From NCBI GenBank assembly GCA_004297775.1, contig SCUE01000017.1:51887-115886 (forward strand): 64,000 nt of DNA. Reading direction: 5' to 3'. The stretch is from Chloroflexota bacterium (GTDB lineage Bacteria; Chloroflexota; UBA6077; FW602-bin22). A program made the position numbers and the translations under genes. This document shows positions 21,930-58,268 of this stretch, in pieces. Numbering within the stretch: position 1 is the first letter of the stretch; the number at the start of each line of letters is the position of its first letter. A model generated the notes under the pieces. The model did no database searches. It saw only the letters and a program-made list of their open reading frames with translations, and was not told the origin of the DNA.

Positions 21930-22265
21930 TCACTCGAGCAGAGGACGAGCGATTCCACGAATGAGCGCCTCAGTCTCCCGGGGCAGTCGGTCGGCAATCT
22001 CCACATGGCGGGCCTCCCAGTCGACGGACCGAATCTGATCGACGAGCACGACTCCGCGCACGGCGAGTCCGTCTGGCAGCAGAACTTCGAAGGGCCGTCC
22101 CTTCGATCGCGACGTCACCGGCACGGCCAGCGCGAGTCCCGAACGCGCGTTGTACGCTCGCGGCGACAGAATGACCGCCGGCCGATGTCCAGCCTGTTCG
22201 TGATCCGCCTGCGGGTTGAAGTTGAGCCAGACCAGATCACCACGATCGGGTGCAATCGCGGCCAC
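21930..22265 (-). CDS. MazF/PemK family toxin
   Basis: 'DRGDLVWLNFNPQADHEQAGHRPAVILSPRAYN...VPVTSRSKGRPFEV'; GTG start overlapping end of MazE-like gene. Confidence 0.88.
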   Translation of the reverse strand: MAAIAPDRGDLVWLNFNPQADHEQAGHRPAVILSPRAYNARSGLALAVPVTSRSKGRPFEVLLPDGLAVRGVVLVDQIRSVDWEARHVEIADRLPRETEALIRGIARPLLE

Positions 22266-22267
22266 GC

Positions 22268-22582
22268 TTACGAGCTCTGTCCCCGCTCTGCCTGATCCGT
22301 CGGCCACGGCTCCAGCGCCTCGCGTCCGCTGGGCGCGTCGTCGGGCCATGCCTCATTCCCGAACCCGGATTCGGTATCGCCGCCCCGGCCGGCGCCTGGA
22401 TCGCCGAATCCGGCCAGAAGCTCCTCGAGCGTCGGCACGCGCTCGACGGGCGCGGCAATCAGGCGTCCCTGTTGAACCGTCACATCCACTTCAGTGCCCT
22501 GCATAACTCGCGCCTCGTCGGCGAGCGCCTTGGGAATACGCATAGCCAGACTGTTGCCCCACTTCTGCACTGCGACCCGCAT
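22268..22582 (-). CDS. AbrB/MazE-like antitoxin
   Basis: 'MRVAVQKWGNSLAMRIPKALADEARV'. Confidence 0.88.
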   Translation of the reverse strand: MRVAVQKWGNSLAMRIPKALADEARVMQGTEVDVTVQQGRLIAAPVERVPTLEELLAGFGDPGAGRGGDTESGFGNEAWPDDAPSGREALEPWPTDQAERGQSS

Positions 22583-44887: not shown

Positions 44888-47284
44888 CTACTTGAGTCGC
44901 GCCGCGCGCTTGCCGGCGCGGGCGCTGGTGGTCGCCGTAGTAGCCTCGCCATCGCGTGGCGGCGGACCAGCCAGCAACTCCCGCTGAAGAGCCAGTGCGC
45001 GCTCCAGGCCGCGCTCGATCGTGGGCTTTCGATACTCCATGCCGTTCTCCGTGAAGATCTCCAGCGCCGCCCGGTGGTGCCCGATCGCCTCGGTCAGGTT
45101 CGCGGCCCGACTGGCCGCGTCTCCCGTGAGTTGCGTCAGCGCGTTCGCCAGGTTGTTCAGCGTCATCGCGTGCTCGGCCGGGTAGCGGTCCCGCGTCCAG
45201 ATCTCCAGCGCCGCCCGGTAGTGCCCGATCGCCTCGGCTAGATTCGCCGCCCGACTGGCCGCGTCTCCCGTGAGTTCCGTCAGCGCGTTCGCCAGGTTGT
45301 TCCGCGTCGTCGCGTGCTCGGCCGGGTAGCGGTCCCGCGTCCGGATCTCCAGCGCCGCCCGGTACAGCCCGATCGCCTCAGTGAGATTCGCCGCCCGACT
45401 CGCCGCGTCCCCAGGAAGGACCGTCAGCGCAGCCGCCAGGTTGTTCAGCGTCATCGCGTGCTCGGTCGGATAGCGGTCTCGCGTCTGGATCTCCAGCGCC
45501 GCCCGGTAGTGGCCGATCGCTTCGGTTAGGTTCGCCGCCCGAGTCGCCCCGTCCCCCGGGAGGTCCGTGAGCGCGGCCGCCAGGTTGTTCCGCGTCGTCG
45601 CGTGCTCGGCCGGGTAGCGGTCCCGCGTCCGGATCTCCAGCGCCGCCCGGTAGTGCCCGATCGCCTCGGTCAGGTTCGCGGCCCGACTGGCCGCGTCTCC
45701 CGTGAGTTCCGTCAGCGCGTTCGCCAGGTTATTCCGCGTCATCGCGTGCTCGGCCGGGTAGCGGTCTCGGGTCCAGATCTCCAGCGCCGCCCGGTAGTGC
45801 CCGATCGCCTCAGTGAGATTCGCCGCCCGACTGGCCGCGTCTCCCGTGAGTTTCGTCAGCGCATTCGCCAGGTTGTTCCGCGTCGTCGCGTGCTCGGCCG
45901 GGTAGCGGTCCCGCGTCCAGATCTCCAGCGCCGCCCGGTACTGCCCGATCGCCTCGGCTAGATTCGCCGCCCGACTGGCCGCGTCTCCCGTGAGTTCCGT
46001 CAGCGCGGCCGCCAGGTTGTTCCGCGTCGTCGCGTGCTCGGCCGGGTAGCGGTCCCGCGAAAACACCTCGAGAAGGCGCCGGAGAATCGAGATCGACTCG
46101 TCGAGATGGGCGGTTCGCGACTGGGTGTCGCCGGTCACGTCACGGAGCAGCGCCGCAAGATTCCCAAGTGTCCGGCTGAGGCTCTCCGTACTCGATCCCG
46201 CGACGGTTGTGGCGCCGCGAAGGGCCGCGATCGCGCTGCTCTGCCGACCGAACCGGGCCGACAAGTCACCGGGCGCGTAGAAGAGACTGGTGGCGAGACG
46301 ATTCACGGCGTCGACGCGCCGATCGACCTGGATCGGCGAATCATCCGAGTCGACCAGGCGGCGCAGGAGTCGCTCGGCAACAAATGCTTCGCCTCGGCGC
46401 AACGCCGATTCGGCTTCGTCGACCTGGTGCTCGACATCCCATTCATTCAAGCCGCGCAGCCCGAGCGTCACATCGCGGTAGCGCAACACCAGCGCATCGG
46501 ACTGTCCGGCGTCCTGGCGCACGTAGAACGGCTCCTCGCGAACCAGCAACGGAGGCACCAGCGGCAGTTCGATTGAGGGGATGTCGAGATCGCCAAGCGC
46601 CTCCTTGAGAGCGGCGCGGCGTTCCTGCACGGTCCGCGGAACGTCGACCGGCACGAGCGACACGACCACGCGCGCCTGGACCCGAACCCCGAAGATCGAT
46701 TCGCCGAGAATCTGGCGGAGCACGAGTCTCGTGCCGGTGAGGTTCTGGCGGTTGAGCGAGGTCACCATGACGACGATATCCGGTAAGACGCGCGTGCAAA
46801 CGCCGCCGATGTCCGTCAGGCCCGTCCGGGAGTCGATCAGAACGTAATCGAAGCGACGTGCCCACTGGTTACGCAATTCGCGTAGAAACCCGAGAACAGT
46901 ATTGCCACGATCCCTCTGCTTGTGAAATTGGAACAGATGAGCATCGTGAAAGCGCGTGGCGTCGTCAGCGAATGATCCCGCAACCACGTTGCCGGCCGGC
47001 ATGAACGAGAGCCGATCATCGAATCCGGTCACCGTGCACCAGTATCGGCGCGCGTCCTGTGCCTGCTTCGCATCCCAGCAATCGAGCAAGTAGCCGACGA
47101 CGCCCCGCGGCAGCGGGCCGTCGGCCGGCGCAAACTCCGGCAGGTAAGAGATGCCCGGCGCCTCAAGATCGAAATCAACCAACAGCACGCGCTGACCGGC
47201 ATCGGCCAGGAGCGCGGCAACATTCGTCGCCAGCATCGAGCGCCCGACACCGCCCTTGAACGAATAGAAGGTGGTGGTCAGCAC
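44888..47284 (-). CDS. KGGVGR-motif variant ParA/MinD-like ATPase with C-terminal TPR array
   Basis: 'FYSFKGGVGRSMLATNVAALLADAGQRVLLVDFDLEAPG' plus about seven near-identical 48-aa TPR-like repeats. Confidence 0.88.
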   Translation of the reverse strand: MLTTTFYSFKGGVGRSMLATNVAALLADAGQRVLLVDFDLEAPGISYLPEFAPADGPLPRGVVGYLLDCWDAKQAQDARRYWCTVTGFDDRLSFMPAGNVVAGSFADDATRFHDAHLFQFHKQRDRGNTVLGFLRELRNQWARRFDYVLIDSRTGLTDIGGVCTRVLPDIVVMVTSLNRQNLTGTRLVLRQILGESIFGVRVQARVVVSLVPVDVPRTVQERRAALKEALGDLDIPSIELPLVPPLLVREEPFYVRQDAGQSDALVLRYRDVTLGLRGLNEWDVEHQVDEAESALRRGEAFVAERLLRRLVDSDDSPIQVDRRVDAVNRLATSLFYAPGDLSARFGRQSSAIAALRGATTVAGSSTESLSRTLGNLAALLRDVTGDTQSRTAHLDESISILRRLLEVFSRDRYPAEHATTRNNLAAALTELTGDAASRAANLAEAIGQYRAALEIWTRDRYPAEHATTRNNLANALTKLTGDAASRAANLTEAIGHYRAALEIWTRDRYPAEHAMTRNNLANALTELTGDAASRAANLTEAIGHYRAALEIRTRDRYPAEHATTRNNLAAALTDLPGDGATRAANLTEAIGHYRAALEIQTRDRYPTEHAMTLNNLAAALTVLPGDAASRAANLTEAIGLYRAALEIRTRDRYPAEHATTRNNLANALTELTGDAASRAANLAEAIGHYRAALEIWTRDRYPAEHAMTLNNLANALTQLTGDAASRAANLTEAIGHHRAALEIFTENGMEYRKPTIERGLERALALQRELLAGPPPRDGEATTATTSARAGKRAARLK
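45070..46060 (-). repeat. 144-bp tandem repeat array encoding TPR units
   Basis: 'GGTAGCGGTC'-containing unit recurs at 45181, 45325 and onward at 144-bp spacing. Confidence 0.92.
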
Positions 47285-47291
47285 GCGGGGT

Positions 47292-48185
47292 TCACGCCGC
47301 TTTCATCAATGGTTCAGTCACTTGGTACGCCTTTGCCCGCGGAGAGGAGTCGGCGATCCGCTGCGCTGGTGCGTGATCGGGACTGCGTCGCTTCGCGGAC
47401 TTCGGCCGACTCCGTATCTGGTTGCCAGTCAAGATGTCCCAGACCTTCGGAGCGCTCTCGGGAACGCCATTTGCCTCCATCGATCTTATCGCCACGTCGA
47501 TAAGTCCGTGCTTCTCCAACACGTCACGCATGCATAAGGCCAGATCGGCTCGGTCGGCGATACGCCGTATCAGCGTCATCAGCGCTAGGCGACGGGCTGC
47601 CTCGTGACCTGCGAACGTTTCGAGGACTTCGTGCAGACGTTTGATCGCCTCCACGAGTGAGAGACGACACATTCCGCCAAAGGCCGCAAGTGCAAAGCGC
47701 GAATCCCTCAGTTCCCGCCGGAACATACCCAGGACCTCCTCGACGGACAGCCCTGGGGCAGGGCTGATCGCGAGCGCGATGAGCGCCTTGCGCCGACGAT
47801 CTTGCATCGTCACCGAGTCGACGCCGAAAAGTTCGCATTGGAGGAGTGCGTACAGAAGACGTGACGTCTCTGGTTCGGCCGGAACGGCTTCGAAAACCTT
47901 CAGGACCGATCCAAGTCGCGCTAGGTCGTCCTGCGCGGCCATCCCTGCTATCGCGGATATCGCGAATGTCCGCAGGAGCACTCCGGCCGCGTGGCCGAGC
48001 CTCTCCGACAAATGCCGATCATTCGCCTGCACGACCATCGCGATCAGGTGATTGAGTCGATCCGCGTCCCGAGGCACGCGCGCATCGCCCAGCGGTACAT
48101 TGTCAACCAGGGCTCGAAGCCAGATGACCTGATCGGGAGCGGCCGCGAAGCTCTCAAGGATTGATCGGTGCGCGGTTTCAGTCAT
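47292..48185 (-). CDS. hypothetical helical protein, operon with KGGVGR ATPase
   Basis: 297 aa, predicted mostly helical from composition; 7-bp gap to ATPase gene. Confidence 0.6.
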   Translation of the reverse strand: MTETAHRSILESFAAAPDQVIWLRALVDNVPLGDARVPRDADRLNHLIAMVVQANDRHLSERLGHAAGVLLRTFAISAIAGMAAQDDLARLGSVLKVFEAVPAEPETSRLLYALLQCELFGVDSVTMQDRRRKALIALAISPAPGLSVEEVLGMFRRELRDSRFALAAFGGMCRLSLVEAIKRLHEVLETFAGHEAARRLALMTLIRRIADRADLALCMRDVLEKHGLIDVAIRSMEANGVPESAPKVWDILTGNQIRSRPKSAKRRSPDHAPAQRIADSSPRAKAYQVTEPLMKAA

Positions 48186-48197
48186 ACCTCACCTCGA

Positions 48198-49016
48198 TCA
48201 CACGACCTCGATGCGATCGAGAAGCGCGGCCTTGAACGCGCGTACGACACCTTCGCGGACGCCTCGGTCTCCGTTGGCGGTCGTGAGATCGCGGGTGTAA
48301 CCCCAGGGATCGCCCGGATTCGATGGACGGAAATGCGGATGCGTCTGAGCGTCGAGTCCGGTCGGCACGGACGCGCGACCGACCCGGCTCTGCCGGAACG
48401 TCAGGACACACTGGACAGCGTTCTGAGGATCGATCCCGCAGACCTGGAGGGCCACGGAGGTTTCTGTACCGACCGGCCAGCGCGCAACTCGGTCCGACAA
48501 CGGTGTTGCCCACGCGATCGGCAGTTCTCCCCTAACGTCCTTACTGGGATCCAACTCAGAAGTTCCAAGTTTGCTAGGACCGAACAAATCGTCCGCCCAG
48601 AATCGCTGCGCGCCGACGTTCTCAAGGTCGGCGGTTCGCAACTCTTGTTGCACCAGATAATCGCGCACATCGATGATCCCGACGATGCGACATACTGTGT
48701 CGGTATCCTCGTCATCAGGAACATCCGGACCGCGACAGAGTAGTTCTCCGGCCAAACGGTCGCTCAGATCACGCAACCACTCCACGCCGGAGCCCGGAGA
48801 CCTCCACAATTCAGTCTCGTCGACGATCGCGGCGATCAGCGCGTCCAGCGCGGTCTCGCCATCGGACTCACGCTCCAGACGAGCGTCGTCGCGCAGATTG
48901 CGTACGACCGCCTCGCCATCCGCGCCCTCGGCGTCGAGTTGGTGGAGCCATTCTCCGACCAGATCGCCATCTGAACCCGTCGGACGCGTCCCGGCCCTCG
49001 CGACGAGATCTGCCAC
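48198..49016 (-). CDS. hypothetical protein, first gene of KGGVGR ATPase operon
   Basis: 272 aa; 12-bp gap to next gene. Confidence 0.6.
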   Translation of the reverse strand: MADLVARAGTRPTGSDGDLVGEWLHQLDAEGADGEAVVRNLRDDARLERESDGETALDALIAAIVDETELWRSPGSGVEWLRDLSDRLAGELLCRGPDVPDDEDTDTVCRIVGIIDVRDYLVQQELRTADLENVGAQRFWADDLFGPSKLGTSELDPSKDVRGELPIAWATPLSDRVARWPVGTETSVALQVCGIDPQNAVQCVLTFRQSRVGRASVPTGLDAQTHPHFRPSNPGDPWGYTRDLTTANGDRGVREGVVRAFKAALLDRIEVV

Positions 49017-57806: not shown

Positions 57807-58268
57807 TCAGACGTTTTCGGCCGTGGCAATGATGAACCCCATTTGCGCGAAGTGACTATCGAACGTAAACGCCAGCGTGATGCCGAGCCTTCTCATCAAC
57901 GCGAAGCTCGTCGCGTCCGCGAAACTGAAGTCCTTGTCGTCGTATCGAAACAGTATCTCGAGCGCGGCTTGCTCGTCGGCCGGCCTGACACGGACTCGGG
58001 CGATGCGACTCGCCTCGACCTCGCTTAAGAAGCGCAGCCCAGCATTGATGCCAATCCCGGAGACGATCAAGGCGTGCGATTCGACGACAACAGTGTTCGA
58101 TGTGAATTGGCCATACCCAACCTCGACCAGTCGGTCCAGAATCGCGATCGCGTCTTGGTGATGGTCGTCGTTTTCGTCGGCAAGCGCACCGAAAGCCGAC
58201 GTATCAATGAACACACGCCGACTCGCTCGTGACCTGGGAATCCGGTTCGCGGCAGCGCGTCGCGGCAC
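57807..58268 (-). CDS. PIN-domain protein
   Basis: 'VFIDTSAFGALADENDDHHQDA', 'DFSFADATSFALMRRLGITLAFTFDSHFAQMGF'. Confidence 0.87.
   Translation of the reverse strand: MPRRAAANRIPRSRASRRVFIDTSAFGALADENDDHHQDAIAILDRLVEVGYGQFTSNTVVVESHALIVSGIGINAGLRFLSEVEASRIARVRVRPADEQAALEILFRYDDKDFSFADATSFALMRRLGITLAFTFDSHFAQMGFIIATAENV

Follow-up and report, generated by a model that had tools for sequence, protein, structure and literature searches.

A three-gene operon on the minus strand of the window, the whole 64,000-nucleotide stretch of DNA analysed, is on strong evidence a rare but conserved one. It consists of a gene A, a gene B and a KGGVGR-variant ATPase gene. By profile comparison the product of gene A falls into a new protein family, family A, which occurs in several phyla and for which no relative was found in Pfam, NCBIfam, PADLOC or PDB. 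The locus is quite likely some form of conflict or regulatory cassette. Our detailed mechanistic reading is tentative, plausible but short of probable: a conflict module, probably of the anti-phage abortive-infection type, that would act like the TAC systems with the KGGVGR-TPR ATPase replacing the SecB-like chaperone.

All three open reading frames of the tightly spaced minus-strand operon described in the sequence-only reading are present (Table 1). The gene order is A, B, ATPase, with gaps of 12 nt between A and B and 7 nt between B and the ATPase gene, and a Shine-Dalgarno-like sequence, GAGGTGAGGT, lies immediately 5' of the ATG of gene B. The longest open frame spans 298 codons, compared with a mean of 170 and a maximum of 339 in shuffled sequences; ORF length is weak proof of coding here because the GC content of the region lets shuffles reach 339 codons. 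Codon-position GC is coding-like (0.70/0.47/0.68 for gene B), and coding of gene A is supported by homologues that occupy the same operon position. Third-position GC is 0.68 in A and B, against 0.82 in the ATPase gene and 0.88 in the adjoining methyltransferase, which is compatible with a different history of the first two genes. The flanking ORFs look metabolic when their translations are read by eye (sugar ABC transporter or sugar transport; methyltransferase, MTHFR-like protein, one-carbon/corrinoid metabolism), and in the same reading no defence gene or mobile element was recognised beside the operon. With respect to vWA-MoxR/VMAP ternary systems, the surroundings seen here are these metabolic-looking ORFs. 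Genome G002 keeps the methyltransferase neighbour without the operon and with a different gene 3' of it, so the operon and its upstream neighbour are not a fixed pair. Elsewhere in the window, the minus-strand ORF at 21930-22349 is MazF-like by eye and that at 57807-58268, also on the minus strand, resembles a PIN-domain protein.

Table 1. Coordinates of the operon and of its features in the window
Feature	Position	Strand	Description	Basis
Gene A	48198-49016	minus	272 aa, GTG start; assigned to a new protein family; candidate effector/toxin	effector role by position
Family-A C-terminal signature	48291-48368	minus	about residues 217-242, VPTGLDAQTHPHFRPSNPGDPWGYTR	hhalign of relatives against window A aligns there
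Gene B	47292-48185	minus	297 aa, ATG start; candidate neutraliser/antitoxin-like component	position and similar size
C-terminal tail of B	47295-47453	minus	about residues 245-297; charged, probably disordered, ends ...EPLMKAA	sequence, L101 B counterpart, terminal-Ala enrichment
ATPase gene	44888-47284	minus	798 aa, GTG start; KGGVGR-variant SIMIBI (MinD/ParA-like) ATPase with C-terminal TPR array	NF047398, AAA_31, CbiA, TPR-S, TPR_12
Variant Walker A	47237-47257	minus	KGGVGRS, P-loop Lys replaced by Arg	sequence
Tandem array	45055-46059	minus	144 bp x 7.0, coding 48-aa TPR units	TRF, 90% matches

Conservation of the gene neighbourhood, the check that the sequence-only reading had named, bears the operon out. 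KGGVGR loci were collected from members of the phylum, from plasmid matches and, through ATPase-domain alignment, as 80 GTDB loci; the genes upstream of the ATPases were then chained and clustered across loci. Operons of A, B and a KGGVGR ATPase recur in Lentisphaerota, Verrucomicrobiota, Fermentibacterota, Thermodesulfobacteriota, a Rhodoferax-labelled MAG and one further bacterium. Five loci (L055, L062, L063, L082 and L101) show an A gene of about 270 aa and a B gene of about 265-300 aa directly before the ATPase. A search with the A profile, in which the ATPase was not used, gives the complete operon L136 in genome G483, whose genes are 3 and 4 nt apart, and L129 in G024, of the same class as the window, where A and then B run up to the contig end. 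Besides the window there are eight loci with A, a gene in the B position and the ATPase (the five above with L092, L122 and L136), and the ninth, L129, ends after B. These loci were mostly found via the ATPase, which favours an ATPase beside them, and L129 and L136 alone are free of that preference. Two further loci, L047 and L066, keep the B position and the ATPase and have an unrelated protein in the A slot. L035 was considered as a divergent A/B operon and rejected, its A match being weak (hhalign 0.0053; HMM 0.067) and its ATPase lying in another clade; it is left out of the operon count and kept in the terminal-Ala count below.

Genes A and B match no recognised family, in agreement with what had been proposed from the letters: Pfam, NCBIfam and PADLOC give no match at E<=1 for either, and neither is assigned to a housekeeping family. 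Single-sequence searches with A and B find no relative in 101 related genomes or in plasmids, and the A proteins of the relatives give no match in plasmids and viral contigs. Among themselves, the A proteins of L055, L062, L082 and L101 match at 1e-25 to 1e-45, with L063 weaker at about 1e-3. A first A HMM, made of L055, L062, L063, L082, L101, L129 and L136 and searched against every ORF in the window and the collected loci, finds after its own members the A proteins of L122 (3.7e-4), the window (7.8e-4) and L092 (2.7e-3), and the next match is at E=2. When the A proteins of L092 and L122 join the model and that of the window is still kept out, window A is found at 1.3e-6 and the next non-member at 0.38. 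The alignment defines a C-terminal signature, PT-x-x-D-[AGS] ... G-x-T ... E, and residues P218, G239, T241 and E270 are invariant in its ten rows. On these sequence comparisons, the HMM match and the signature together, window A is a member of family A. The family is rare: in four samples 2/251, 2/145, 1/344 and 0/249 genomes have it, counting the centre genome where it bears A. It is found here only beside the second gene and, on contigs that reach far enough, the KGGVGR ATPase. The model of L101 A is of moderate quality (pLDDT 73, pTM 0.74) and is helical in its N-terminal part and alpha/beta in its C-terminal part. Compared with PDB it gives no significant fold (best E 1.9), and no catalytic site was recognised in A. 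A relationship to the NADase toxin Tne2 was also considered; the structure match is weak (E 3.5, target TM 0.52) and is not used as evidence.

Window B resembles the B genes of L062, L101, L082, L055, L063 and L136 in position and size. No HMM of the other B proteins matches it, and hhalign gives E values of 0.1-0.26, within the range of shuffled controls; what links window B to the other B proteins is its place in the operon, its size and its tail alone, and we do not count it as a member of family B. The L101 B model is an alpha-solenoid with a mean pLDDT of 84.5 and a helical core mostly above 90. Its nearest structures are designed armadillo repeats, a generic likeness that is not significant. 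The tail of this model (residues 231-264), the counterpart of the window B tail, has pLDDT below 50 and is disordered. We consider it unlikely that A and the ATPase are the conserved pair and window B an unrelated replacement, the role of B varying by locus. The shuffle-level hhalign between the B profiles and window B agrees with a replacement, and the unrelated protein in the A slot of L047 and L066 indicates that slots are swappable, but window B has the same place, a similar length and the Ala-Ala end of most B proteins.

The third gene codes for a KGGVGR-motif variant AAA ATPase (NF047398) at 1.3e-42 and 146.3 bits against the NCBIfam cut-off of 90; this score and the KGGVGRS motif itself, read directly in the sequence, uphold the earlier call of a variant Walker A. 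Arg takes the P-loop Lys place in 88/88 of the KGGVGR family members collected. MinD/ParA-like domains in conflict systems are predicted to be inactive (PMC7159879), and since the invariant Arg fits this prediction, the job of the ATPase is likelier to be binding than turnover. The C-terminal repeats, previously taken for TPRs, are recognised as such by TPR_12 (1.5e-16, 60.8 vs 30.1 bits) and TPR-S (PF20308; 7.8e-14, 52.5 vs 27.6 bits), both over the Pfam gathering score, which places them with the TPR-S/TPR sensor repeats of conflict systems. Seven copies at 90% matches suggest that the array has undergone recent expansion or homogenisation. It is improbable that the ATPase localises an A-B cargo, with the TPRs forming a scaffold, in the manner of an ordinary MinD/ParA-like complex for positioning or partition. 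The SIMIBI fold and weak ParA/MinD matches in Pfam and NCBIfam speak for such a complex, but it is opposed by the P-loop Arg in all 88 members, the sporadic distribution (family A in 2/251 and 1/344 genomes, own or centre genome included), the swapping of partners and the highly repetitive TPR array.

In the ATPase tree the window lies within a 12-row A/B clade (99/95), and all A/B operons represented in the tree fall there as well. L092 and L122 are its closest companions (98/80); the window branch is long (1.85) and its exact place is unsure. Partner type follows the tree, with 12 changes vs 43.3 when shuffled. The sister clade fills the same two slots with a protein of about 120 aa and an MqsA-family antitoxin, in which TIGR03830 covers residues 21-138 of 191 and an extra C-terminal tail of about 50 aa follows. 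The small protein, which we take to be MqsR-like from its position and a recognised YxK...SF pattern (a local resemblance), has no match in Pfam or PDB. This MqsR-like, MqsA-family and KGGVGR ATPase unit is widespread (L042, L043, L049-L052, L054, L060 and others) and is also seen in plasmids and in the viral contigs L138-L140. Another KGGVGR clade follows TIR proteins, one of which scores as FxsC beside an FxsT-type ATPase.

The protein coded just upstream of the ATPase frequently ends in Ala. This is the case for 8/8 first-counted B-type proteins (L035, L047, L055, L062, L063, L066, L082 and L101) vs 55/475 ORFs (Fisher 5.6e-8) and for 19/36 MqsA-type proteins vs the same 55/475 background ORFs (Fisher 1.6e-8); the proteins within each class are related and not independent, so the p-values overstate the evidence. 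The stronger point is that the Ala end is common to two unrelated classes. Only 1/19 of the TIR-type upstream proteins has it. The total for the A/B type becomes 10/12 when the window and L136 are added as matches and L092 and L122 as misses; in these last two, the nearest relatives of the window ATPase, the B-position protein is without terminal Ala. An [FY]-x-[LI] motif is present in addition in 32/36 of the MqsA-type tails, compared with 52/400. An artefact of stop/start overlap was rejected, as the codons are GCC, GCT, GCG and GCA and many of the stop codons are clear of the following start. In CmdTAC, the antitoxin CmdA ends in LAA, and ClpP degrades it when phage capsid titrates the chaperone, which frees CmdT (PMC11618068). 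A single tail of M. tuberculosis HigA1 holds both the chaperone site and a ClpX degron (PMC8165232). The Ala-ended tails are read as degron-like because known TAC antitoxins end in such ClpXP signals (PMC11618068, PMC8165232).

These tails also bear on a rather unlikely explanation, that of a Kaur/Aravind-type conflict system in which the KGGVGR domain is an inactive or switched transducer or effector, A and B serve in recognition or as adaptors, and toxin-antitoxin logic plays no part. Inactive MinD/ParA-like domains are described among conflict-system effectors and partners (PMC7159879), KGGVGR ATPases also come after TIR/FxsC proteins and in a caspase-containing locus, and the helical N-terminal and alpha/beta C-terminal parts of the A model could be a sensor. 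It accords less well with a sister clade that pairs with a toxin-antitoxin-like couple, or with an Ala-ended tail that marks the ATPase-adjoining protein of the A/B and MqsA classes and not that of the TIR class.

In the TAC-like reading, we infer toxicity of A, neutralisation by B, recognition of the tail by the ATPase, degradation and a trigger, in the following way. A would be a growth-inhibiting effector, and B, a helical protein whose flexible C-terminal tail ends in Ala-Ala, would bind and silence it. Alone, B would be a ClpXP-type substrate; the ATPase would hold its tail and so shield it. The TPR array would sense an invader signal, and once it is engaged the ATPase would release B, which would be degraded and leave A free. 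The conserved order, the match of window A, the A/B clade, the sister MqsR-like/MqsA pair, the Ala ends and the L101 B tail argue for this reading. Against it stand A without a recognised fold or catalytic site, window B without detectable homology, L092 and L122 without Ala, an MqsR-like label given by resemblance, and surroundings in which no defence genes or mobile elements were recognised by eye.

The TAC systems (HigBA-SecB of M. tuberculosis and CmdTAC of E. coli) have the effector-neutraliser-guard gene order that is proposed for the window. Their middle protein carries a C-terminal extension with a ClpXP-like signal at its end, to which the KAA end of window B and the disordered tail of the L101 B model may correspond, and window B is a candidate for degradation. 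Unlike in these systems, the third gene here codes for a TPR-bearing KGGVGR ATPase of the SIMIBI type and not for a SecB-like chaperone, and A and B lie outside the known toxin and antitoxin families. NF047398 ATPases, including FxsT of the FxSxx-COOH system, have the same domain and C-terminal TPRs and are coded right after their partner, but the partner here is the A/B pair and not a TIR/FxsC protein, and neither A nor B has an NCBIfam match to FxSxx-COOH components. M28B of PADLOC PDC-M28 matches the ATPase domain at 4.1e-24; however, only part of the 438-aa model is covered, A and B are without a PADLOC match, and the three genes do not make up the full system. The MqsR-like/MqsA-like KGGVGR loci of chromosomes, plasmids and viral contigs share the three-slot layout and often the Ala-ended tail of the middle protein, with the ATPase in the sister clade, and differ in the effector and neutraliser families.

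A broader proposal, possible but somewhat doubtful, is that KGGVGR-repeat ATPases serve generally as the third component in place of SecB chaperones. They would read the degron-like tail of the upstream-coded protein and guard several unrelated effector-antidote pairs (MqsR/MqsA-like, A/B and others), A being a new effector family. Comparison over some 90 loci suggests one rule for these ATPases, a family that is widespread and poorly understood: they would watch the tail of the protein coded upstream of them. If this holds, tripartite toxin-antitoxin defence would gain a second guard type.

Other layouts are seen among the collected loci. The KGGVGR ATPases of L079 and L091 have a WD40-like C-terminal part and are preceded by a protein of about 215 aa, with a MarR-like HTH in L079, and one of about 450-480 aa. 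In L006, L007 and L038, which may show the PADLOC PDC-M28 layout, a KGGVGR protein of about 430 aa is flanked on one side by a gene of about 140-160 aa and on the other by one with a P-loop-like stretch. On a cyanobacterial plasmid (L045, 1-9715), genes annotated as SAV_2336-like, caspase and beta-propeller surround the KGGVGR ATPase.
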